From: Oleiphilus sp.
Lineage (GTDB): Bacteria; Pseudomonadota; Gammaproteobacteria; Pseudomonadales; Oleiphilaceae
Assembly (NCBI GenBank): GCA_006212045.1
Contig: PZPK01000017.1
Span: 1 to 64,000, forward strand
Direction of reading: 5' to 3'
Length of the DNA stretch: 64,000 nt
The position numbers and the translations under genes were made by a program. Shown piece after piece: positions 34,001-44,795 of this stretch; the stretch's first letter is position 1; every line of letters begins with the position of its first letter. The notes beneath the pieces are model-generated. The model made no database searches, was not told where the DNA came from, and saw only the letters and a list, made by a program, of their open reading frames with translations.

Positions 34001-34753
34001 TTTGAAAGTGTTGATTTTGAATCCGGCGAGCTGCTGGCTGCAAGGTCAGGAGAGCGGGGACCTGGCATCGCTTATCGGGATCTTAAAGAATTTATTGCTT
34101 CACAGTTGACGTCGGCGGCCCTCGTTGCACCCGAGCAGATCGGGCATTGGTCCGAAAGGCTGCACGCGTGGTTGAAAGCTGCACTGGAAACGCCGTTGAT
34201 TCCTGGTTTGAAGTTAGGTTCGGTGTCTGCGCAATGCTATGTGGCCGAGATGACGTTTCATTTTCCTGTGGCGCACTTATCGGCGGCCGATTTGAATCAG
34301 GTGCTTCAGCGCGAAGCCGAAGACGGGCAATCAATCGGGATGGCATTTCAGGCATTTGAAGGGCATATCAAGGGGGCGATTGATCTGGTATTCGAGCACA
34401 AGGGGCAGTTTTTCGTGTTGGATTACAAGTCGAATTTTTTGGGCAATTCGCTGGAAGATTATGATCAGGTAGCGATGCGCAAAGCGATGGATGAACACCG
34501 TTATGATTTGCAGTATCTGCTGTATACCGTTGCGGTGCACAGACATCTCAAATTCCGTCTGGGTGATGCTTATTCTTATGCGCGCGATTTTGGCGGCGTG
34601 CTATACCTGTTTCTGCGTGGGCTGGAAGTGCATGCGCCTGAGCAGAAGGAAAAGTCAGGCGTTTACTTTCATAAACCGGATGCGGCGCTTATTGATTCCC
34701 TGGATCGACTGTTAGCCAGCAACAGTAGCGGTGGAAAGATGACATGCGTCTGA
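31028..34753 (+). CDS. recB: RecBCD enzyme subunit RecB (helicase–nuclease, exodeoxyribonuclease V beta)
   Basis: 1241 residues (E. coli 1180). SF1A 3'–5' helicase motifs are visible: Walker A in IEASAGTGKTYTLA (about 18–31), ALIDEFQDTDPAQY (Walker B), LIGDPKQAIYAFRGGD, NWRSSPAMV, VTIHKSKGLEYPVVFLP and LYVALTRARYRCYLGF. The C-terminal nuclease domain has Asp1119 in GAIDLVFE and Asp1132–Lys1134 in LDYKSN, the metal-binding and catalytic set. It overlaps recC by 4 bp and recD by 10 bp, so all three are translationally linked. Confidence 0.98.
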   Translation: MKKLDLMAFPLEGLALIEASAGTGKTYTLANLYLRYLIEKNYSVEQILVVTFTEAATQELKQRIRLRIGDLRRCLEACQQNPAFVSEDALLNSFCAKIDDSRAALLRLRIAERQMDEAEIYTIHGFCQRMLQQHALSLGTPLSQELNEDMLPLLREQCLDFWRSEILALPDVALEFVRARWADPEVLLQALGVLLQRQPEVILPALDSGSDSMQTSARDGVQRWCRHLEQAHAWLQSLKDQTRLQIASVIERVQTSDLQRLKDKLRWLEQIASWAEQDDVQDLPKDSKGNSLLARFVPEHLAEQCKKGKTPPTHPWFGYLEQQLAEQPEGLAEQFLHVAYCCLKQDIQIRKRRGAILGFDDLILELAAALNVRLDPERKQALVGLVRSHYAIALIDEFQDTDPAQYQIFNQLFASGLADQPPALVLIGDPKQAIYAFRGGDIATYLRAKKDIQSHPQGSVFTMDTNWRSSPAMVAAVNTVFGLREAPFFHQDIPFVHVQAGKDEDGGFGRLPALSLRFASAQGRSKPDIDQVLARDCAGQISALLNPEGPMALKAADIAILVRTAREAELLRTVLADFGIRASFETRARIYDSEEALGVYLLLAAIAEPGQPGILRQCLAHPMLAMSDRDLEDWSRHSAVQAELHSKLLNLQVLWERAGVLAMIREALVSLGVLQRWRQTSAHEEQGNHKNGEDWERRLSNINQLAELLQEASRVETGHHALLRWLRRKIQQQEAVNDDNRMRLESDDQLVKIVTIHKSKGLEYPVVFLPFMHAARGAQEAWFYDQQGRRALDLLARERTLGLAEQERLEEDMRLLYVALTRARYRCYLGFSDYPGRGTSLGLSGTAWGNLVLGQTENPSEPGAIEDALENLRQLDPTQIELVDVDAQSDPLSGQALREATDVHSAEEASVKRMHRRLQTSWKVQSFTGLVQEGTHRMSAAGEMESSALQHLFHSNAGASRWPLAEDADALPSHILDFPKGSRAGVFLHTLFESVDFESGELLAARSGERGPGIAYRDLKEFIASQLTSAALVAPEQIGHWSERLHAWLKAALETPLIPGLKLGSVSAQCYVAEMTFHFPVAHLSAADLNQVLQREAEDGQSIGMAFQAFEGHIKGAIDLVFEHKGQFFVLDYKSNFLGNSLEDYDQVAMRKAMDEHRYDLQYLLYTVAVHRHLKFRLGDAYSYARDFGGVLYLFLRGLEVHAPEQKEKSGVYFHKPDAALIDSLDRLLASNSSGGKMTCV

Positions 34754-36867
34754 CTCATTGGAGAATTGCCAGACATGTGCAGCGGCTTGAACAGGCGCAA
34801 ACCGGAGTGCGCTGGTTGGACCTTTATGCCGCACAAGCCATGATGACCCGGTTATCGGATTGCGAAGCCAGGCAAGACAGGGAATTGGAGCGCAGTACCG
34901 TTGATTTTCTGGTGGCATGTTCAGCCGCCTCTGCATTTGGCTTTGATGCATTGCCGGTGGCTGGGGAACGCTATCTCAAGTTTGCCGACAGAATGTTGTC
35001 ACAAGGCTTGAAGCTGCCTGATACAGAGCAATTGGAGGTGGTTCTGAAGCAGTTGGCATCCTCGGGTTTGCTTCAAACCGCCAAGGATGAGCAGTCCGAT
35101 GCGAGCCATGTATCTGATTCGCCGCTGGTACTCGCGGAATCCTGCGTGTTTCTGCGCAGACTCTGGGAACAGCATGATTTCCTGAACGGCTGGTTGAAAC
35201 GGCAGGAACAGGTGACATCGTTGAACCTTGATCAGGTGCGGGATTCCCGGACGCAGCCGGAGTTTTTGCAGGACAGTTTCAAATGCCTGTTCCCGGCGAC
35301 AGATCCTGAACAGGCTGTCAGAAGCGGAGACTTTGATTGGCAGGCCCTGGCCGCCGCGCAGGCTCTGACACAGAATGTATGTCTGATTTCCGGAGGTCCC
35401 GGCACAGGAAAAACCTCCACAGCCGCCCGAATTCTTATCCTTTATCAGTTGCAAGGGCTTCAGGACTTGCCTTCCGGTGTTGAAAGCATGCGCATCCGTC
35501 TATTGGCGCCGACCGGAAAAGCGGCGGTGCGCCTGCACACCTCGGTGGTCTCTCAATACCCGTCCTTGTTGGCAAAGCTGAACTTGGACGAAGACCTGGC
35601 AGGGCGGCTGAAAGCGTCGTTGCCGCGGCAGGGTGAAACCATTCATCGGGCTCTGATGGAAGTGAGCGGAAAACGGAGCCGCGATGGAGGCTTAAGCAAA
35701 GATGCTTTCATCGATAGCGGACAGTTGCTGTCTGGGGAAATAACACAGGCAACGCTGGACGCGGATATCGTGCTGGTTGATGAGGCGTCCATGATTGACC
35801 GGAAACTGATGCAGGACCTGCTTGCCATAGTGCCCCTTGGCAATCCGGATGCCGAAGCTTCCGGGTGCAGGTTACTGTTTCTGGGGGATCACTATCAATT
35901 GCCTCCGGTTGAATGTGGCGAGGTGTTCGCGCAATGGGTGCGGCGCTATGCGGATCGTCCATTCAGCCAATCGCAAGTGGCAGCGATGTCGTTTTTTTAT
36001 CCGGCTGTTGTGGAGCAGGTCGCGGTTGAACCAGTCAGTGCAGAGGCGTGCTCCGGGGAGGCACAGGCACCGAGTCTACTGGCACAGCTGCACAAGACCT
36101 ATCGCTTTGACGGTCCGATACAGGTGTTTGCACAGGCATTGCGCCGTGGTCGGTTGCCGCCTTTGACTCAACTCTTACCCGAGACCTCAATCGCGGGTCG
36201 AAGTGATGTCGCAGGGGACCTGTTTTCCCCGGCGACATTTACCTGGGTCGATTTGGGTCTGGCTGGCGCCGGTGAAGAGGGTGCGTCCCGCCTTGCGCAA
36301 GCGATGGAAAATGTGCTGGAAGGCTATCGCAATTACTTTGACAAGGTAGATCAGGGCCTCAGCCCGGCACAACTGATGGAAGAAAAGCTGCGTTTTCAGG
36401 TTTTATGTGCAACCTATGAAGGTCCGCTTGGGGTCAATATGATCAACCGCTTGGTGGAGAAGCGCTTTGGACGGGGAGAGTTTTACCACGGTAAAGTGAT
36501 TATGGTGACCGGTAATCAGCCGGCACTGGATCTGTTCAATGGTGACCTGGGCATTCTGACAGCTATTGAATCTCAGGTAACAGAGAACAAAGCAGAATCG
36601 GCTACCTCCTATCTGGTGCACTTTCCCGACAAGAATAATCAGGATGAGGGAGTGGCGCTCTCAATGATTCATGCCTGGCAGACAGCCTACGCGATTAGTA
36701 TTCACAAGAGCCAGGGTTCCGAATACGAGCAAGTGACGGTATTTGCACCTGACTACGCGGGTGAGTTGCTCAGTTCACGGCTGGTGTATACAGGGGTAAC
36801 TCGTGCCCAGCGCAACGTTGAATTATGGATCAGTCGACAAACCCTGTTGGCTCAGACAGAACCGTAA
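34744..36867 (+). CDS. recD: RecBCD enzyme subunit RecD (5'–3' helicase, exodeoxyribonuclease V alpha)
   Basis: 707 residues, about 100 more than E. coli RecD (608). The N-terminal domain that contacts RecC is followed by SF1B helicase motifs: ISGGPGTGKTSTAARIL (Walker A), RLLAPTGKAAVRL, IVLVDEASMIDRKLM (Walker B), LLFLGDHYQLPPVECGEVF, YAISIHKSQGSEYEQVTV and RLVYTGVTRAQRNVELW. Extra length comes partly from an insertion around residues 415–440 (FFYPAVVEQVAVEPVSAEAC), of unknown role. The gene ends 28 bp before a convergent DUF4402-like gene. Confidence 0.97.
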   Translation: MRLTHWRIARHVQRLEQAQTGVRWLDLYAAQAMMTRLSDCEARQDRELERSTVDFLVACSAASAFGFDALPVAGERYLKFADRMLSQGLKLPDTEQLEVVLKQLASSGLLQTAKDEQSDASHVSDSPLVLAESCVFLRRLWEQHDFLNGWLKRQEQVTSLNLDQVRDSRTQPEFLQDSFKCLFPATDPEQAVRSGDFDWQALAAAQALTQNVCLISGGPGTGKTSTAARILILYQLQGLQDLPSGVESMRIRLLAPTGKAAVRLHTSVVSQYPSLLAKLNLDEDLAGRLKASLPRQGETIHRALMEVSGKRSRDGGLSKDAFIDSGQLLSGEITQATLDADIVLVDEASMIDRKLMQDLLAIVPLGNPDAEASGCRLLFLGDHYQLPPVECGEVFAQWVRRYADRPFSQSQVAAMSFFYPAVVEQVAVEPVSAEACSGEAQAPSLLAQLHKTYRFDGPIQVFAQALRRGRLPPLTQLLPETSIAGRSDVAGDLFSPATFTWVDLGLAGAGEEGASRLAQAMENVLEGYRNYFDKVDQGLSPAQLMEEKLRFQVLCATYEGPLGVNMINRLVEKRFGRGEFYHGKVIMVTGNQPALDLFNGDLGILTAIESQVTENKAESATSYLVHFPDKNNQDEGVALSMIHAWQTAYAISIHKSQGSEYEQVTVFAPDYAGELLSSRLVYTGVTRAQRNVELWISRQTLLAQTEP

Positions 36868-36895: not shown

Positions 36896-37357
36896 TCAGA
36901 GATCTTCAGTGACATTAATCACGAATGATGGGTGCATTTCGCCTTCGCCGACAGAACGCTGATAGACGACCTTCATTCCCAGCTTGGCGCTTGTGCCGGA
37001 ACCGGGTGACGGTAGTCCAGAGGCCGGAAAGCTTTTGTAAGTCACCCCCTCGTAACGTAATTTGAAGCCCTTGAGGGTCACGCCGGCAATATCCTCATTG
37101 CTCTGAATATCCACCGTGATCGTGTTCGTGCTGTCACTGCTGATGATAAATTCAGCTTCATTGTAATAGGTGCCGACAATGGTGGCATTGGTACCACCGC
37201 CCAGGTTGCCGTTGTGGGTCACGATAATTCTCTTCTTGCCCGATTCTGAGGGCAGGGCTTTCGGAAAACTCAGCGACTGTACTTCCTGGATCCAGACTTG
37301 CGCATAACTGCCTCCGCAGGGCAGGCCCAGCAGCACCAGATAACACAGCATCTTCAT
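36896..37357 (-). CDS. Secreted DUF4402-like protein
   Basis: About 153 residues from ATG 37357; a TTG start 19 codons upstream is possible but would place extra residues before the signal peptide. The signal peptide (MLCYLVLLGLPCGGSYA) is followed by a beta-rich domain: SLSFPKALPSESGKKRIIV, AEFIISSDSTNTITVDIQS and a C-terminal VVYQRSVGEGEMHPSFVINV strand. The short strands around a 'gold-standard' GxxxxV pattern resemble DUF4402, a secreted pilin-like fold. It differs from the two other such proteins in lacking the paired Cys. It is convergent with recD and divergent from the major pilin-like gene across a 600-bp leader region. Confidence 0.6.
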   Translation of the reverse strand: MKMLCYLVLLGLPCGGSYAQVWIQEVQSLSFPKALPSESGKKRIIVTHNGNLGGGTNATIVGTYYNEAEFIISSDSTNTITVDIQSNEDIAGVTLKGFKLRYEGVTYKSFPASGLPSPGSGTSAKLGMKVVYQRSVGEGEMHPSFVINVTEDL

Positions 37358-37959
37358 TGTTTTTGACAGGTATCGAATCTGGGGCAGGGTGCAAGGTGTT
37401 TCAAATATCTGCAATGTTTACGCTCTCTGGGCTGTCGTTCCGTCATTTTCGGCCCGATGCCATTTGCAAGTTTGGGTAACTCTATTGCGCTTTGTTACCC
37501 GGTTTGTTCAGGATTTAAGCGGCCTTTTACGATAAGCGCCTAACGTGATACAGGCAAGTATAACTTCGTAACACTCGGATACAAAAAAGGCCTGTATCAG
37601 GCAGGAAATTCTCCAGATTTAGCTAGAGTGAAATCAAAGGCGTTCGAAATGCAAAATACTGAAAAACGCCCTCTGATGTATGAAAGGTTGCGACGTTGCA
37701 GTTATCAGGCTTCGTCTTAACAGGAGTCACCAACTCCCGGTTCATCGCCAAAAGCTGAATGATCCGAACGTTATCAGAGCAAGTATGCAAGGACACAGGG
37801 ATGTCATCAGGATAAAAAAGGATGTCAGGGATACATAATAAACAGCCTAGGCTGAATAAAAATGGTCCAGCGGCGTGTCGTCAAGGCGGCACAAAGAAAT
37901 GGGCTAAAAAACGAGTAGTTTAACAGTCATCACAAACCAAATATTTGGAGATACTATCC
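37358..37959. promoter_or_regulatory. Long intergenic leader with two inverted repeats
   Basis: About 600 bp without a gene separate two divergent DUF4402-like genes. GGGTAAC (37474–37480) and GTTACCC (37494–37500) form a perfect 7-bp inverted repeat with a 13-bp gap. TGATACAGGC (37546–37555) and GCCTGTATCA (37590–37599) form a perfect 10-bp inverted repeat with a 34-bp gap. The stretch from 37600 to the pilin start is AT-rich and could be a long 5' untranslated region. These are candidates for regulator binding or RNA structure. Confidence 0.45.
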
Positions 37960-38457
37960 ATGAAAGCAACATTCAAGAAAGCAGCAATTGCAGCCACTAT
38001 CGTAACGGGTCTTAGTGCAGGTGCCGCGCAAGCGGATACATTCCAGGCGCTACTGTCTATCGTTCAACCTCTGTCACTGGCGGAAAACACTCAGATGGAT
38101 CTGGGCCAGATTGATGTATCAACGGATGCCGCAGTCTGTACTGTCGCTGCCGCAGGTGCTCGTTCAGGTGCCGCATGCTTTGATGCCGTAACCAACGGTA
38201 CCGCAGGTGTTATCGATGTCAGCGGTACAACCGGTCTGCAATTTGATATCTCAATCAGTGGTACGACGGCTAACGGCCTGACCTTTGCACCTTCGATGCT
38301 GGACAATGGCCAGGGTGCAACGACGCTGACAGGCGTTACATTGGCGGCTTCTCACCAATTGACTCTGGGTGGCACTTTGACGGTTGACAGTGGTGCGACC
38401 GCTTCAGCCAACAACCCAACGTCGATCGACTACGATGTGACTGTGGCGTATCAATAA
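37960..38457 (+). CDS. Major DUF4402-like secreted subunit (putative pilin)
   Basis: 165 residues. A Sec signal peptide is cleaved after AGAAQA (about residue 24), leaving a roughly 140-residue beta-rich, Gly/Thr/Ala-rich mature protein with no membrane segment. Two Cys (AAVCTV and GAACFD) could form a disulphide. Motifs shared with the 44175–44795 protein are FQ-LSIV-PL-L at the mature start, LD-GQ, GT-G-I-V-GTTG, L-FAP and Y-V-VAYQ at the end. GGAG lies 9 nt before ATG 37960; an earlier in-frame ATG is rejected because it precedes this site. A strong terminator follows, so it forms its own, probably high-level, transcript, as usual for a major fibre subunit. Confidence 0.72.
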   Translation: MKATFKKAAIAATIVTGLSAGAAQADTFQALLSIVQPLSLAENTQMDLGQIDVSTDAAVCTVAAAGARSGAACFDAVTNGTAGVIDVSGTTGLQFDISISGTTANGLTFAPSMLDNGQGATTLTGVTLAASHQLTLGGTLTVDSGATASANNPTSIDYDVTVAYQ

Positions 38458-38481
38458 GCGACAGCAGACAGACTAGTGATC

Positions 38482-38512
38482 AAAGGCGCCTTCGGGCGCC
38501 TTTTTCGTTTTT
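38482..38512 (+). terminator. Strong rho-independent terminator after putative pilin gene
   Basis: The perfect stem AAAGGCGCC/GGCGCCTTT has a TTCG tetraloop, one of the most stable loops, and is followed by TTTTTCGTTTTT. It separates the pilin-like gene from the chaperone–usher operon, which would allow far higher expression of the subunit than of its assembly proteins. Confidence 0.95.
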
Positions 38513-38739
38513 GTCATATAAACTGTGTCCATTTAATTCCAAATAGCATTAGAAAGATTTCTAAAACAATTGATTTAAAAGAAAAATAGTCCATTCTTAT
38601 AAGAGCAGTTCCGGATCGTTGCGGCACGTATCGACAATGGCGTGAGAACTGAAGCAAAAAAGATATTCAGAACCACTGAATACGAAACAAGTGCGTCATG
38701 AACGCATTATTTATAACTCTTTTTGATACTACCAAGCCC

Positions 38740-39555
38740 ATGAAAACTCTATCCCAAGTTGTGTCTGTCATTCTCCTGACAGTGTGTCTCTTCTCACAGG
38801 CCCATGCCGGTCTGTTAATTAATCCGAAACGTGTCGTTCTTGCCGACCGGGATCGCAGCGCTACGCTGGACCTGATGAACGAAGGCAGCGAAGTCGCGCG
38901 TTACCAGATTTTCTTTGAACAGAAAATGATGAATGAAGCCGGTGCGATTGTGGATGTGCCGGAACTTGATGAAGATGCGGTCTATGCCAAGGATATGATT
39001 CGCTATTCTCCCAGACGTGTCGATATTGCACCCGGTCAAAAACAAACGATCAGGCTGGCCGTCAGGCGCCCGAAGGATCTGCCTGCCGGTGAATATATTT
39101 CGCATCTGGTGTTCAAGGAAATTCCATCAAAAGTCGACAGGACACCCGAGAGTCAAAGCGAAGAGCGGCTTAAACTGGCTTTTCGACCCACCTTGAAGCT
39201 GGCAATACCGATCATTGTGCGCAAAGGCGAACTGGATGCCAGCGGCGCAATTAGCGAGGTCAGACTATTCTCGAAAGAGCAGGATCAGTCTTTGCTCTCC
39301 TTCCACCTGCAGCGCAATGGAGAACGTTCCTTGTACGGGGATGTGGAAATCTATGAGATGGCCGGAGACCAATTGGGAGAACGCATCGGTTTTGCCCGAG
39401 GTATTGCCTTGTATACTACGGTCAGTCAGCGCAAAGTGAATGTACCTTTGGTTCGTCCGGTCAGTGAGGACATCAATAGCCTGTTTGTCCGCTACGACGA
39501 AGGCGGCAAGTACGGGGGAACCAATGTCGTGGAACTGCCTGTCACATTGGATTGA
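38740..39555 (+). CDS. PapD-like periplasmic chaperone
   Basis: About 271 residues from the second in-frame Met (38740), which gives a clean signal peptide ending FSQAHA; the upstream ATG 38698 would add 14 residues. The mature start GLLINPKRVVLADRDRSATLDLMNEGSE is the G1/A strand of an immunoglobulin-like chaperone domain 1. RYSPRRVDIAPGQKQTIRLAVRRP and LPAGEYISHLVFKEIP match the F1–G1 region; the usual G1 alternating hydrophobics that complete a subunit are in KLAIPIIVRKG. Domain 2 follows (about 175–270). The chaperone should hold DUF4402-like subunits in the periplasm. It is 31 bp upstream of the usher-like gene. Confidence 0.85.
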   Translation: MKTLSQVVSVILLTVCLFSQAHAGLLINPKRVVLADRDRSATLDLMNEGSEVARYQIFFEQKMMNEAGAIVDVPELDEDAVYAKDMIRYSPRRVDIAPGQKQTIRLAVRRPKDLPAGEYISHLVFKEIPSKVDRTPESQSEERLKLAFRPTLKLAIPIIVRKGELDASGAISEVRLFSKEQDQSLLSFHLQRNGERSLYGDVEIYEMAGDQLGERIGFARGIALYTTVSQRKVNVPLVRPVSEDINSLFVRYDEGGKYGGTNVVELPVTLD

Positions 39556-39586
39556 AGCAGCCCTTCGAAGTTAGCCTCACAACTGA

Positions 39587-42280
39587 TTGACAGGCCTGGT
39601 GTTGGTTATCAGATTATTCAGCCTTTGGCTGATGTTGCTCTGTGCGAAGGCACTGGCCGGGCAGGAGTTTCCCCTGTCCCAGACCGGTGTCGGCGCCGAG
39701 CGCGCGCGCGTGCATCTGGCAGAGGAAAATCTACTGGTCCTGGAGCTCAGGATTGGTGACTATGTCAGTTCCGATTCCCTGTTCGTTTATCAGTCCCCCG
39801 ATGAAACTCTAATCCCCTTGCAGCCCTTGCTTGAGGCGCTGGATTTTCCGGTCAGTATCGACATGGACACCCTGAGTCTGTCTGGTTGGTATATCGAAGA
39901 AGAGCGGCGAATTTCTGCGGATATTCTGCAGCAACGTCTGTTCCTGCGCGGCATGCAACAAGCATGGCCAGAACGATTGCACTATGCCGCTGATGACTTT
40001 GATCTCTATCTGGACCTTGGCACCATCGAACAGTGGTTTGAATTGCACTTGGATCTGGACGTTTCGCAATTGCGTTTGGGGGTTTCTTCGTCGTTGACCC
40101 TGCCGGTGCTGGCCAGGCTGGAGCGCGAAAAGAGGCGTGAGAATCTGCCCAAAGAAACAAACCGGCAGCGCATTGGGATTGATATTAACAACCGTTACTC
40201 CTGGTTGGGAAAGCCCCAGTTTGATGCCGGGTTCAGTCTGGATGCAGCCCAGAGCCAAGGCCAAAGTGAAAGCAGCTACAGCGGTGTGTTGCAGGGGCGT
40301 ATGGATCTGCTCAAGCATTCCATGCAGCTCAGTTATTATGAGGATGACCGCCAGAGAGAGGCGCGTATCCGTATGTCACGCGCCGCCGCATCTCCGGATC
40401 AGCAGGTACTTCCCGGATTTGATCGCTATGAATTTGGGGATATTCAAAGCTATTCCGACCCTTTGATCTTCAGTGCGATAAACGGCCGCGGCCTGGCTCT
40501 GCAGCGGGGTCGTGATCAAGTCAACCAGCAGGGCAGCTCCATCAATATCGAAGGCGATGCAACTCCGGGCTGGGAGGCCGAGTTGTACCGTAATGGGCAG
40601 CTGATCGCTTTTTCGGAAGTGGGTCTGGACGGACGTTATCTGTTTGAAGAGGTGGTTACCAGTCTCGGGCAAAACAATTTCGAGGTCCGCCTATATGGGC
40701 CGCAAGGGCAGTTTCGCGTCAGCAAAAAACAGTTGTCGATCGGTGGAGAGATGTTGCCGGCTGGCGAAGTTGAAGCGCAATTAGTGGCGCTTGATCGCAA
40801 TTCGATGCTATTGGAATCCGAGCCGCCATCAAGCAAGGAGACGAGCGACTTTCAGTTGGCCGAGCTTGGGCTGGGGATCAATGAGTATGTGACGGCGCAA
40901 CTTGGGCTCAGCAATATGACGCCGGCCAATGGGCAGAACGCTTACCTGTATCGGTATTTCAATCTTTTTGCCAGTGTCTGGGGCCTCCAGAACCAGTTCA
41001 AACTGGCGAGCGACGGAGAGGGCGGGATTGCCTGGCTGGAATCGGTAAAGGGGCGCGTGGGATCAAGCAGTCTCAATCTTGACTGGAAGGTCTTTGATGA
41101 CTTTGTCAGCGACCGCAATCCGCAGGGCCTATTGGAGCGGGATGTCGGTGTGGATCTGAGCAACTCGGTCAGAATGGGCTTGCCGAGTCCAATGTACTTC
41201 ATCTTCGGAGTTCGGCAGCAATCATTTTCGGATGGGCGCAAACTGGTTCGTTATTCCAATGATTTGAGCAGTCGGCTGGCTGGTATCAAGTTTGCGCATA
41301 ACGCGGTATGGACAGACTCCAACGAAGATGAGCCGGCAAGTTTGTCCGGTCAGCTTAGCGTCACAACACAGTGGTATGACTGGCGACTCAAAGGCTCTGC
41401 AGCGTATCGGGCACGGCCGACGGGGCGCATGGATAATCTGAGTCTGGGTGCGAGCTATTTGGGTATGGAGAACTTCAGCTATACCGGCTCGGCCCAGTAT
41501 TTGTTCGGGGCAGCGTCATCTGCCCGTATCGACAATACCTTTACCTGGGATCTGAAAGGCGTCTCGGTGTCGGTGAATGCTTCTGTGACAACAGAGGATT
41601 ACTACAGCCTCGGTTTGTCCCTGAATACTGCCTTGGGCTACGACTATGCGGACCGGGCTTATGCGTTCAATCTGCGCAGTCAGGTAAACAATGCCTCAGT
41701 TACGGCTCTGGCGTTTATCGATGAAAACGGTGATGGCATCAAAGGGCCGGATGAGGCTGCCGTAGAACATATCCGGTTTAAAGGGATCGGACATTGGCGT
41801 CATGCCGAAACCAATGCTGATGGTTTGGTGACACTGGCCGGGTTGCCAGAGTTGGCAGTCCAGACCATAGAGGTCGACGAAAAGTCGATAGAAGATCCGT
41901 TCCTTCGCGTAGCGCGACCGCCGGTAACGATTTATACCCATGCCGGGACGCATTACTTTCTTCAAATTCCTTTGGTTCAGACTCTTGAAATTGAAGGGCG
42001 ACTGGATCTTGTGCTCGATGAGCGCACTTTGCCTGCGACCGGTGTAGAGGTCCACTTGCTTGATCAGCAGGGTCAGATCATATCGACAACCACGACGGAA
42101 TATGACGGAGTCTACCTGTTTGAGCAGATCCTGCCCGGGAAGTATTTTATGCAGATAGACCCCCTGTGGCTCAAGGCACGCAAGGTGACTAACATCGAGC
42201 CGGTTAGGGTCAATGCGACAGGTGAAGATGGGATTATCTTTATCGACCCCTTGATCCTGGAGCGCAAATCCGAGGGCTAA
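39587..42280 (+). CDS. Non-canonical usher-like outer-membrane protein with Ig/carboxypeptidase-regulatory-like C-terminal domains
   Basis: 897 residues. The signal peptide ends near CAKALA. An N-terminal domain of about 140 residues has two beta-rich halves (LELRIGDYVSSDSLFVYQ, LLEALDFPVSIDMDTLSLSGW). A middle segment, NIEGDATPGWEAELYRNGQL then DGRYLFEEVVTSLGQNNFEVRLYGPQGQF (about 328–385), resembles the plug domain of ushers. Many short alternating strands (about 390–700) fit a beta-barrel. The C-terminus carries SdrD-B-like ALAFIDENGDGIKGPDEAAV and a carboxypeptidase-regulatory-like VEVHLLDQQGQ…YLFEQILPGKY domain. It probably secretes chaperone-bound DUF4402 subunits. It is unlike FimD/PapC in its N- and C-terminal parts. 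The start (TTG 39587 or GTG 39599) is uncertain. Confidence 0.72.
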   Translation: MTGLVLVIRLFSLWLMLLCAKALAGQEFPLSQTGVGAERARVHLAEENLLVLELRIGDYVSSDSLFVYQSPDETLIPLQPLLEALDFPVSIDMDTLSLSGWYIEEERRISADILQQRLFLRGMQQAWPERLHYAADDFDLYLDLGTIEQWFELHLDLDVSQLRLGVSSSLTLPVLARLEREKRRENLPKETNRQRIGIDINNRYSWLGKPQFDAGFSLDAAQSQGQSESSYSGVLQGRMDLLKHSMQLSYYEDDRQREARIRMSRAAASPDQQVLPGFDRYEFGDIQSYSDPLIFSAINGRGLALQRGRDQVNQQGSSINIEGDATPGWEAELYRNGQLIAFSEVGLDGRYLFEEVVTSLGQNNFEVRLYGPQGQFRVSKKQLSIGGEMLPAGEVEAQLVALDRNSMLLESEPPSSKETSDFQLAELGLGINEYVTAQLGLSNMTPANGQNAYLYRYFNLFASVWGLQNQFKLASDGEGGIAWLESVKGRVGSSSLNLDWKVFDDFVSDRNPQGLLERDVGVDLSNSVRMGLPSPMYFIFGVRQQSFSDGRKLVRYSNDLSSRLAGIKFAHNAVWTDSNEDEPASLSGQLSVTTQWYDWRLKGSAAYRARPTGRMDNLSLGASYLGMENFSYTGSAQYLFGAASSARIDNTFTWDLKGVSVSVNASVTTEDYYSLGLSLNTALGYDYADRAYAFNLRSQVNNASVTALAFIDENGDGIKGPDEAAVEHIRFKGIGHWRHAETNADGLVTLAGLPELAVQTIEVDEKSIEDPFLRVARPPVTIYTHAGTHYFLQIPLVQTLEIEGRLDLVLDERTLPATGVEVHLLDQQGQIISTTTTEYDGVYLFEQILPGKYFMQIDPLWLKARKVTNIEPVRVNATGEDGIIFIDPLILERKSEG

Positions 42281-42303
42281 GGTTCAAGGAATCAGCGCGT
42301 GTG

Positions 42304-43101
42304 TCACTGGCCAATATAGATTCTGAGGTCTTTGCGGTTAAAGAAAATGTTGGACGGCGTGGTGCCGAACATGGATCTGAAAGTATGCGCAAAGTGGGCT
42401 GAGTCGCTAAAGCCCGCATTAATGGCTGCATCGGTCATGGAACTCCCCTGTGCAATATAGCTTGCTGTTCGAAACATGCGGTGCCAAAGCCGGTAACGTC
42501 GTATGGGGATGCCGGTTTGTTGTTTGAACAACTGGATTAGCCGCTGGCTGGAAATGTTAACCGCGCCAGCCAGTGCTTCCAGCGAAGTATTTTCTGTGGC
42601 GGTCGACTGGATCATCGCCACGACTTTCTCCACTCTGGGATCAACATAGTGTGCTGGCATTGCTTCGCCTGTGCAGGCCAGTCTTTGTTCCAGCAGCTGG
42701 CTGGCTTTTTCGGGAGCGGTTTGCTGCTTCAGCAATTCGCTGAACATTTTTTGCAGTTCTTTCTCGTTTTCAATTGTGTATCCCAGTGTGTCTATCTGCG
42801 CCCCGGATCTTGACAGCAAGTGTGCGTAATCCCTGCCAAAGACATCCAGATTGCAATTGGCAACGATGGCATCCTTCGTTTGCACAACGACCTGATATCC
42901 CGCTGGCATTACGACACTTTGGCAGCGTAGGTGTTTGTTTGAGTCCGGCAGGTATAGCTGTATTTCATGGTCTAGAGAGACAGTCAGGGTCGCGGCCCCC
43001 TGTTTAAGCGCAACCTGCTCGGCCAGCTGACCAATGAAGAGTGTGCGCTTGGGCCAAAGGTATAGCAGCGACGCGGATGTGGAATCTGAGGTGGGTTTCA
43101 T
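42304..43101 (-). CDS. AraC-family transcriptional regulator
   Basis: 265 residues. The N-terminal part (about 1–145) is beta-rich and unassigned; the C-terminal AraC domain contains SLEALAGAVNISSQRLIQLF (first helix-turn-helix) and SMTDAAINAGFSDSAHFAHTF (second), then MFGTTPSNIFF. It faces the usher gene convergently with a 23-bp gap and is divergent from a GST gene. Its position inside the cluster makes it a candidate regulator of the fibre genes, which is inference. There is no clear ribosome-binding site. Confidence 0.92.
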   Translation of the reverse strand: MKPTSDSTSASLLYLWPKRTLFIGQLAEQVALKQGAATLTVSLDHEIQLYLPDSNKHLRCQSVVMPAGYQVVVQTKDAIVANCNLDVFGRDYAHLLSRSGAQIDTLGYTIENEKELQKMFSELLKQQTAPEKASQLLEQRLACTGEAMPAHYVDPRVEKVVAMIQSTATENTSLEALAGAVNISSQRLIQLFKQQTGIPIRRYRLWHRMFRTASYIAQGSSMTDAAINAGFSDSAHFAHTFRSMFGTTPSNIFFNRKDLRIYIGQ

Positions 43102-43225
43102 GATGGTGTGGGAACAGTGAAATCAGCCAGCGTGTTTAATTCGGGCATTGTGCAGCGCCGTGGATTATCGTTCAATACGTTAGCTTGATAATTCCCAAAT
43201 GCCAAAGATAACAACAGGAATCACC

Positions 43226-43933
43226 ATGATTGAATTGCACCAGTTCCCGAGCAAAATGGGTGTCCCGAACCTGAGTCCCTTCTGTATGAAGGTAGAAGCC
43301 TTCCTGAATGCTGCCGGCTTGCCGTATGACGTCGTCAAGCAACCGGACCCGCGCAAAGCACCTCTGGGGAAATTACCCATGATCGTGGATGGGCAAGTGC
43401 AGGTTCCGGATTCGCACCATATTATCCGTTATCTCTCCGACACCTATGATATTGATCTGGATGCGCATCTCTCTGCCCCTGAAAAGGCAGTGGCGCACGC
43501 TTTTGCGCGTATGATCGAGGAAAGGCTGTACTGGATCTTCGTGTTTAACCGCTGGGTGGATGACAACTGGCCAGTGGTCAAGAAAGGCGCGTTCGGAAAA
43601 TTACCGCCGGTGGTGAAGGACATGGTGCCGCGCATTGTACAGGGCAAGATCAAAAGGGATCTGGAGGGGCAGGGGCTTGGCCGACATGAATGCGAGGCTA
43701 TCTATGCCTTCGCAAAAGAAGATATTCAGGCACTGGCCGATTTTCTGGCTGACAAGCCCTATTTCATGGGAGATCAGATAAGTTTGGCCGACATCACGGT
43801 CGCATCTTTTTTGTGCAATATTGTGCAGGTAGAGTTGGATAGTCCGATAAAACAGTATGTATTAGCGCACCCTAATCTGGATCGTTACCAGCAGAGATTG
43901 GCGCCGCAATTGTTTCCGGCGCATTTTGGCTGA
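43226..43933 (+). CDS. Glutathione S-transferase/metaxin-like (FAXC-type) protein
   Basis: About 235 residues from ATG 43226 (AGGA 6 nt upstream). The thioredoxin-like half carries LSPFCMKVEAFLNAAGLPYDVV, with the Cys-containing SPFC motif, and GKLPMIVDGQ and VPDSHHIIRYL. The helical half has FLADKPYFMGDQISLADITVASFL. The spacing and LYWIFVFNRWVDDNWP resemble the FAXC/metaxin subset of GST proteins rather than detoxifying GSTs. Substrate unknown. It lies between the AraC gene and the second pilin-like gene, and its relation to the fibre cluster is unclear. Confidence 0.88.
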   Translation: MIELHQFPSKMGVPNLSPFCMKVEAFLNAAGLPYDVVKQPDPRKAPLGKLPMIVDGQVQVPDSHHIIRYLSDTYDIDLDAHLSAPEKAVAHAFARMIEERLYWIFVFNRWVDDNWPVVKKGAFGKLPPVVKDMVPRIVQGKIKRDLEGQGLGRHECEAIYAFAKEDIQALADFLADKPYFMGDQISLADITVASFLCNIVQVELDSPIKQYVLAHPNLDRYQQRLAPQLFPAHFG

Positions 43934-44022
43934 GTACAGAGAGTCGGCGTCAATGCATGCCAGGCATCAGGCGGTTCGGGGTAGTCCAGAGACATTGGTT
44001 TGTGAGCAAAAAGTGATTGCCG

Positions 44023-44042
44023 AGGGCTGGCCAGCCAGCCCT
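44023..44042. repeat. Perfect inverted repeat, possible terminator or hairpin
   Basis: AGGGCTGGCCAGCCAGCCCT forms a 9-bp perfect stem with a tiny loop after the GST gene. The T run on either side is poor, so it may be a factor-assisted terminator or a simple hairpin. Confidence 0.4.
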
Positions 44043-44174
44043 GTGTTGCCATGCCGGGCTATTGGTATCGCTGCATAGACACGCATGAGTACCAGATCCC
44101 AATCCGACAATTCCTTACAGTAAAATCTGAAAAGTCGTCTATAATGGAGGCCTTCTTTGACGAGGGCAGGGTCC

Positions 44175-44795
44175 ATGCGGGTTTTTGGGCGATGGTTAGG
44201 GCAGCATGAATATGTATCTCAGTGTTGTTCAAATGTCGAATTCGGGTTCCTTCCTGTATGTCCCACCCGGTTAACCCGTCGTCGCCCTGTTGCATTAAGA
44301 GCCGCGATAATCGTTGCGATGGTTTTCTCAATGGCGGCGCTATTTTCAATGTCCTCCTGGGCAGAACAGGTTCGCTTCCAGTCCAAACTGTCCATCGTCA
44401 GCCCACTCAAGCTGTCGCAATCGCGTGATCTGGATTTTGGCGCCATGCGCCTGGCGCCGGGAGAGGCATGTACACTTGATCCTTCGACCGGCCAAACCCA
44501 TGGCGGCGCGTGTTATGCATCTGACGGGCAATCCGCCCGTATTGTTGTGGAAGGCACGACAATGGAGAGCGTCGGGATAGAGGTGGTTGTTGAAGATAAT
44601 TCGACCATGGCATTTGCACCCGAAATAAGACGGATGCCGGGAAGCGCAGCGGCCTCGCAGTCACAGCATTTCGTACTCGATATCGGCGGAACTGTTTCCC
44701 TCAACGAGGTGCCGCATCTCGATGTCGCAGCTAAGACGGGTGTTGATTATCCCGCGATGACCCTCGCTTATGCCGTGGAAATTGTCTATCCCTGA
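44175..44795 (+). CDS. Second DUF4402-like secreted protein, paralogue of the putative pilin
   Basis: Up to 206 residues. The mature region from about residue 65 parallels the 37960–38457 protein: FQSKLSIVSPLKLSQSRDLDFG, the Cys pair in EACTL…GGACYA, IVVEGTTMESVGI, MAFAPE, DIGGTVSL and a closing LAYAVEIVYP. The N-terminus is odd: the chosen ATG (GAGGG upstream) gives a 44-residue polar leader ahead of the hydrophobic ALRAAIIVAMVFSMAALFSM segment, unlike a normal Sec signal; a later ATG would leave too short a signal. It may be a minor or tip subunit. It overlaps the FAD gene convergently by 10 bp. Confidence 0.6.
   Translation: MRVFGRWLGQHEYVSQCCSNVEFGFLPVCPTRLTRRRPVALRAAIIVAMVFSMAALFSMSSWAEQVRFQSKLSIVSPLKLSQSRDLDFGAMRLAPGEACTLDPSTGQTHGGACYASDGQSARIVVEGTTMESVGIEVVVEDNSTMAFAPEIRRMPGSAAASQSQHFVLDIGGTVSLNEVPHLDVAAKTGVDYPAMTLAYAVEIVYP

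Follow-up and report, generated by a model that had tools for sequence, protein, structure and literature searches.

A locus at positions 36896–44795 of the window analysed here, the first 64,000 nucleotides of Oleiphilus sp. contig PZPK01000017.1, encodes a PapD-like periplasmic chaperone, a divergent usher-like outer-membrane protein and three DUF4402 proteins, and we are confident that it represents a deep-branching, apparently undescribed chaperone–usher class, lying outside the classical, alternative and archaic classes and using DUF4402 proteins as its pilins. Chaperone–usher pili are textbook organelles of which three classes are recognised. A bolder form of this reading, which we favour with more reserve, is that the system is a fourth class whose split is as deep as, or deeper than, that between classical, archaic and alternative systems, that it occurs in hundreds of mostly environmental species and that its fibre begins with a single-domain tip without a donor-strand extension. 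The chaperone, the usher-like protein and the three DUF4402 proteins named in a preliminary description of the window are all present in this interval; in a search of the genome the usher-like protein was the sole copy and the locus likewise held the only DUF4402 proteins above the cut-off, and no PF00577 usher was found in the window's genome and 57 relatives.

Structure and relationships of the usher

Phmmer and profile searches with the usher-like protein against the PDB sequences matched SdrD-type B domains alone, and blastp against known ushers gave a best E-value of 0.004 for the window protein and of 3e-5 overall (L068). The Pfam matches of the window protein are SdrD_B and CarboxypepD_reg alone, both at the C-terminus, whilst Usher, PapC_N, PapC_C, TcfC and CooC_C were matched in 0 of 48 family members at E ≤ 1 among the families listed (the 25 most frequent of 34). 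As sequence search fails to reach FimD, a structure-based route was taken. The AlphaFold2 (AF2) model obtained with the 48-sequence alignment (predicted local distance difference test score (pLDDT) 88.1; predicted template modelling score (pTM) 0.69) has six barrel strands followed by an inserted beta domain (residues 318–385), a further 18 strands and two C-terminal beta domains, the order of the FimD/PapC plan. The 18 best Foldseek matches of this model in the PDB are all FimD or PapC (E-values 9.3e-33 to 8.3e-15; next fold 3e-9), and in the VIA comparison FimD reached a Z-score of 23.6 with other barrels at 16.9 or below: the usher-like outer-membrane protein proposed from the sequence is thus borne out by a predicted 24-strand barrel with a plug and by FimD and PapC leading the structural matches.

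Alignment of usher profiles with hhalign gave E-values of 2.5e-16 for archaic ushers (683 columns, from the N-terminal domain (NTD) onward), 3.3e-11 for classical and 1.5e-10 for alternative ushers; reversed profiles gave 0.018–0.19, and the TonB receptors FhuA, BtuB, FepA and CirA, serving as unrelated-barrel control, were rejected as relatives at 0.074. The case for homology rests on this long collinear alignment rather than on individual domains: when isolated and compared with classical ushers, neither the NTD (E-value 0.014) nor the plug (0.02) reached significance and the C-terminal domain (CTD) region gave 4.5e-5, and the excised NTD matched archaic ushers weakly (8e-5). The NTD region is divergent and longer than that of archaic ushers; the plug carries the motifs GD..PGWE.ELYRNG and YGPQGQ. 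The N-terminus and the Ig/carboxypeptidase-regulatory-like C-terminus, which had been described as differing from FimD/PapC, are indeed highly divergent, but they are not foreign additions: they occupy the places of NTD, CTD1 and CTD2 and align with archaic ushers. Judged by model and profile alignments, the product of 39587–42280 is a true usher.

Further domains were seen within the family. A Cu_amine_oxidN1-like match, possibly just a common small fold, occurs in 10 of the 48 members, and the peptidoglycan-binding SPOR domain was matched in seven; C-termini of SPOR-like appearance are seen in ushers of genomes G019 and G041 (L011 2392–5490; L012 7664–10690), and SPOR-domain proteins are encoded on both sides of a Pseudoalteromonas operon (L014 1413–1898 and 6715–7353). 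It is possible that these domains target the usher to the division site. One usher relative in the 48-member alignment matches POTRA_2, a domain of two-partner secretion transporters (E 2e-15). Finally, the match of the new-family profile extends to the CTDs (E 4.8e-11) of an 846-residue PF00577 usher (E 2.1e-27) from genome G458 (L154 1338–3878), and this sequence-level bridge could possibly be an intermediate.

The chaperone

PapD_N scores above the cut-off in the window chaperone and was matched in 19 of 28 chaperones. The chaperone profile aligns with archaic chaperones at an E-value of 1.1e-14, with alternative ones at 6.7e-12 and with FimC-like ones at 1e-8 (hhalign), the archaic alignment spanning 212 columns that begin in the first domain and reach the second, and hence conforming to the two-Ig-domain plan of PapD. 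The earlier assignment as a PapD-like chaperone is upheld by the match to PF00345 (E 2.6e-8) together with that to the archaic profile. A proline that is invariant across the chaperone superfamily (PMC4654587) is kept in 28 of 28 sequences. In archaic and alternative chaperones the carboxylate of the subunit is anchored by an arginine of high conservation (Arg89 of CsuC; PMC4654587), and the column that is equivalent by profile alignment holds arginine in 25 of 28.

DUF4402 proteins as probable pilins

DUF4402 was recognised by Pfam in 37 of 44 sampled subunits; the third DUF4402 protein of the window matches the family profile at an E-value of 4e-22, although this profile was seeded with the same protein. 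The AF2 model of the window pilin (pLDDT 82) contains no strand before residue 40, so that the mature N-terminus, which starts at about ADTFQALLSIVQPL (about residue 24), is not self-complementing there. The 12 best Foldseek matches of the model are all chaperone–usher pilins (FimA, FimG, PapA and the pilin domain of PapG), and such pilins fill 45 of 50 rows of the VIA comparison, CsuA/B included: DUF4402 is predicted to adopt a pilin-like fold. A C-terminal aromatic residue with alternating hydrophobic positions is known as the motif by which chaperones recognise pilins. In its strict form this pattern is present in 64% of 169 DUF4402 proteins versus 0.85% of 1055 other open reading frames, and the profile link between DUF4402 and archaic pilins (E 2.4e-7) is confined to the C-terminal 35 residues. 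The proposal that DUF4402 units serve as pilins is therefore supported both by the resemblance of the subunit model to donor-strand pilins and by the C-terminal pilin motif.

When the N-terminal extension is measured from predicted signal cleavage to a conserved LxFG motif, its length is bimodal, with 22–36 residues in about 101 proteins and 10–16 in about 33. Long-class extensions are beta-like, with hydrophobic residues at −15, −11 and −9 and proline favoured at −12. In the window, cleavage of the protein encoded at 36896–37357 is predicted between SYA and QVWIQEVQSLSFP, which leaves 12 residues ahead of the motif and places it in the short class; the position and orientation of its gene are the same in the Oleiphilaceae loci L010 and L021 and in Shewanella loci. 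A short DUF4402 protein without extension could receive a strand but would have none to donate, and in known systems a subunit of this kind is the tip. Given this analysis, the short protein is likely to be a single-domain tip or first subunit: an adhesin of classical type is missing, as had been noted, and for the tip the best candidate is a DUF4402 protein devoid of the N-terminal extension. The third DUF4402 protein is probably a minor subunit; in L009/L020, as in Shewanella loci, a DUF4402 gene likewise lies directly 3′ of the usher gene.

Several observations weigh against this reading. The Foldseek E-values of the pilin model are individually weak (best 4.6e-3) and its VIA Z-score of 7.5 lies within the range of chance matches; the structural matches persuade through their uniformity and not through single scores. 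The extension classes depend on a home-made signal-peptide rule, and of the 51 loci at which at least two subunits were classified, just 29 combine a short with a long subunit, many sphingomonad loci having one long DUF4402 protein and no visible tip. As for the chaperone, the anchor column is occupied by isoleucine in the window and in one Oleiphilus relative and by leucine in the other.

Two variants of the subunit genes were also encountered. The Oleiphilaceae relative G004 carries tandem pilin copies (L010 5175–5672 and 6330–6827) about 660 bp apart that encode identical 165-residue proteins, a recent duplication or conversion. Elsewhere, proteins of 327–388 residues possess an extra N-terminal region followed by a terminal DUF4402 domain (L069 3700–4866, L011 6491–7498, L016 6607–7590, L048 2048–3076), and some carry a second DUF4402-like unit; such two-domain proteins (e.g. 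those of L069 and L011) are reminiscent of two-domain adhesins and are candidate tips.

Conservation and distribution

With each species represented by a single genome, a scan returned 477 usher relatives, and locus layouts were inspected at the best 80 of these. DUF4402, chaperone and usher genes occur together at 76 of the 80 loci, a recurrence that speaks against chance, and in 68 of 78 cases the chaperone gene immediately precedes a co-oriented usher gene (median gap 34 bp). Shewanella loci share the full layout of the window: a DUF4402 gene on the minus strand, then DUF4402, chaperone, usher and DUF4402. Same-genus relatives with the locus are titled Oleiphilus or Oleiphilaceae, and in G002 and G004 the locus is present with ushers 38% identical. 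Its flanks in the window are formed by what we take, from their sequences, to be recD (34744–36867) and a dnaX region (48792 onward); recD precedes the locus in G004 too, and the locus of G001, where the contig starts inside the usher gene, adjoins dnaX.

The titles of further usher relatives comprise Alpha- and Gammaproteobacteria, Desulfobacterota-type groups, Nitrospinaceae, Zixibacteria and Acidobacteriota, and plasmid-borne triads exist in Pseudoalteromonas, Polaromonas, Novosphingobium and Sphingopyxis. Near-full-length members number at least 13 in 398 Pseudomonadota genomes (the window's own counted), a lower bound as two candidates per genome were scored, versus 71 genomes with PF00577 ushers. 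The Polaromonas plasmid triads (L015, L019) adjoin IS6-family transposases, so the triad may move between replicons.

Placement relative to the known classes

Published schemes divide chaperone–usher systems into three groups and six clades (PMC9452303; PMC4654587). In a maximum-likelihood tree of 40 ushers (LG+C20+F+G4, posterior mean site frequencies (PMSF), midpoint root) the new, archaic, classical and alternative ushers form one group each with 100% bootstrap support; the longest inner branch (1.28) sets the new group apart, the remaining three are united at 100/100, and archaic and classical ushers group together among them (100/97). Because the root is a midpoint root, divergence is high and long-branch effects are possible, our claim is limited to separation from the known classes and does not extend to the new group being the oldest.

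The features that define the named classes were also compared. Classical ushers carry PF00577, PapC_N and PapC_C and group with FimD-type ushers, whilst the new family, with 0 of 48 members matching at E ≤ 1 among the families listed, forms a separate clade; TcfC (PF16967) and CooC_C (PF15976), present in 7 of 7 alternative (alpha) ushers tested, were likewise found in 0 of 48 among the families listed. Archaic (sigma) ushers are PF00577-positive and group with one another, neither of which applies to the new family, and archaic subunits belong to SCPU (PF05229), a family that is absent from the window's genome, the subunits here being DUF4402 proteins.

The alternative that survives best, although we consider it unlikely, is that the system is merely a divergent branch of the archaic class and no class of its own. 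Archaic counterparts score best for all three components (usher E 2.5e-16, chaperone 1.1e-14, pilin 2.4e-7), and the new family is spread over alpha, beta, gamma and delta groups as well as some further phyla, much as has been reported of archaic systems (PMC4654587). However, archaic ushers resemble classical ones (E 1e-51) far more than they resemble the new family, they are matched by Pfam Usher at E-values of 1e-27 to 1e-37 whilst the new family has no match at E ≤ 1 among the families listed, the new subunits are DUF4402 and not SCPU, and the tree places the new family outside archaic, classical and alternative ushers taken together: a class separate from the archaic one is the reading that we prefer.

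Organisation of the locus and neighbouring genes

The features of the locus are collected in Table 1. Between the pilin and chaperone genes lies, at 38482–38503, a hairpin with a 9-bp stem, AAAGGCGCC-TTCG-GGCGCCTTT, followed by a T-run, in agreement with the strong terminator that had been ascribed to the signal-peptide-bearing DUF4402 subunit; terminator-like sites number 12 in all against 8.6 expected, and this one is by far the strongest.

Table 1. Predicted features of the DUF4402 chaperone–usher locus (positions in the window).
Feature	Position	Strand	Basis and remarks
Short-class DUF4402 protein	36896–37357	minus	PF14352 E 2.3e-5; ATG at 37357, reading frame open from TTG 37414
Long-class DUF4402 protein, putative major pilin	37960–38457	plus	PF14352 E 1.8e-8; true ATG 37960, stop 38457
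Intrinsic-terminator-like hairpin and T-run	38482–38513	plus	Between pilin and chaperone genes
PapD-like periplasmic chaperone	38740–39555	plus	PF00345 (PapD_N) E 2.6e-8; better start ATG 38740, reading frame open from ATG 38698
Divergent usher (predicted), 897 residues, TTG start	39587–42280	plus	AF2 model, PDB structure matches, hhalign
Usher NTD region, about residues 45–170	39719–40096	plus	Within whole-protein alignment to archaic ushers
Usher beta-barrel, 24 strands, residues 211–686	40217–41644	plus	AF2 model
Usher plug, residues 318–385, between barrel strands 6 and 7	40538–40741	plus	AF2 model, alignment
Usher CTD1 (about 703–798) and CTD2 (about 799–893, SdrD_B/CarboxypepD_reg-like)	41693–42265	plus	Domain matches, hhalign
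AraC-family regulator	42304–43101	minus	HTH_18 E 1.6e-17
Glutathione S-transferase-like protein	43199–43933	plus	GST_N_4 E 4.2e-29
Third DUF4402 protein, long class	44157–44795	plus	Weak Pfam match (E 0.01); ATG at 44175

A divergently oriented pair of genes (42304–43933), encoding an AraC-family regulator and a glutathione S-transferase (GST)-like protein that the preliminary description had passed over, separates the usher gene from the last DUF4402 gene. Some alternative fimbriae are under the control of AraC-type activators, and this, with the position of the araC-type gene between usher and terminal DUF4402 genes, would suit a dedicated regulator belonging to the locus; we nevertheless hold such a role to be very improbable, since none of the 80 related loci has this gene or the GST gene next to it, and in L009/L020, from an Oleiphilus relative, about 70 bp are all that separates the usher gene from the terminal DUF4402 gene. 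AraC was hence rejected as the flanking member of the set that it had been taken for, and from gene-neighbourhood comparison both genes are probably not part of the system.

Proposed assembly pathway

Very probably the locus serves to assemble hair-like fibres on the cell surface through a chaperone–usher pathway. Following the established pathway, each DUF4402 subunit would be exported by Sec and its incomplete Ig fold capped by a strand lent by the PapD-like chaperone, after which the chaperone–subunit pair would dock on the usher NTD. The chaperone strand may then give way to the N-terminal extension (ADTFQALLSIVQPL in the window) of the long-class pilin that follows, with the plug swinging aside and the fibre leaving through the 24-strand pore, as secretion through the pore is established for the pathway. 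The short DUF4402 protein (36896–37357) would be placed first, as the distal tip, the shaft would consist of the 37960–38457 product and the 44157–44795 product would take a minor position. Partial termination at the hairpin 3′ of the pilin gene could provide a surplus of pilin over chaperone and usher, and the fibre may serve attachment or biofilm formation. That DUF4402 proteins instead leave through the usher-like protein as separate adhesins or as a matrix layer, chaperone and usher being an export pair without a fibre, would accommodate the many loci with a single DUF4402 gene and the roughly 33 DUF4402 proteins without the extension needed for polymerising, yet it is the least probable of the alternatives, as in most loci one or more subunits carry a clear beta-like N-terminal extension (101 long-class proteins), which fits linkage between subunits best, and plugged 24-strand ushers are, to our knowledge, found in fibre assembly alone.

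Comparison with known systems

Whether homologous triads already constitute a known fimbrial class had been left as a question by the preliminary description: in the open-access literature (5.39 million papers), to which the search was confined (subscription papers and preprints lying outside it), no description of such a class was found, DUF4402 and PF14352 find no mention, and queries combining usher with carboxypeptidase-regulatory, AlphaFold or 'new class' returned nothing relevant. Provisionally, we regard the class as undescribed. Genome surveys detect ushers via PF00577 (e.g. PMC5717340), and since this model misses the new family, surveys gated in this way cannot see it and the system is annotated merely as 'DUF4402', 'molecular chaperone' and 'carboxypeptidase regulatory-like'. 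NCBI plasmid records show this directly: the same triad appears as 'DUF4402 domain-containing protein / molecular chaperone / carboxypeptidase regulatory-like domain-containing protein' with no gene named usher, and five of six records are without a pilus term, the other containing 'fimbria/pilus periplasmic chaperone'. If our reading holds, DUF4402 gains a function, questions on the evolution of the pathway gain a deep sister group, and the predictions on strand exchange and the one-domain tip are directly testable.

With archaic systems (Acinetobacter Csu, Pseudomonas CupE) the new system shares the operon logic of pilins, chaperone and usher, the usher order NTD–barrel–plug–barrel–CTD1–CTD2, the best profile matches for all three components and the C-terminal pilin motif; it differs in having DUF4402 in place of SCPU subunits, in an usher that stays below all Pfam usher models among the families listed, in its separate clade and in the two-domain SCPU tip adhesin, of which none was seen. 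Alternative systems (CFA/I, the E. coli common pilus with EcpC) resemble it in the usher relationship (E 1.5e-10), in the weak CarboxypepD_reg match of the EcpC CTD and, in the window alone, in an AraC gene nearby, whereas the new ushers lack TcfC and CooC_C among the families listed and form their own clade. Classical type 1 and P pili share with it the usher fold, FimD and PapC being the best structural matches in the PDB, and FimA, FimG and PapA are nearest to the subunit model; unlike these, the new system has no PF00577, PapC_N or PapC_C match among the families listed and no lectin-type adhesin, and again branches separately. The system is related to and works like the chaperone–usher superfamily, yet it departs from each of the named classes in the defining features tested, namely Pfam domains, clade and subunit family.

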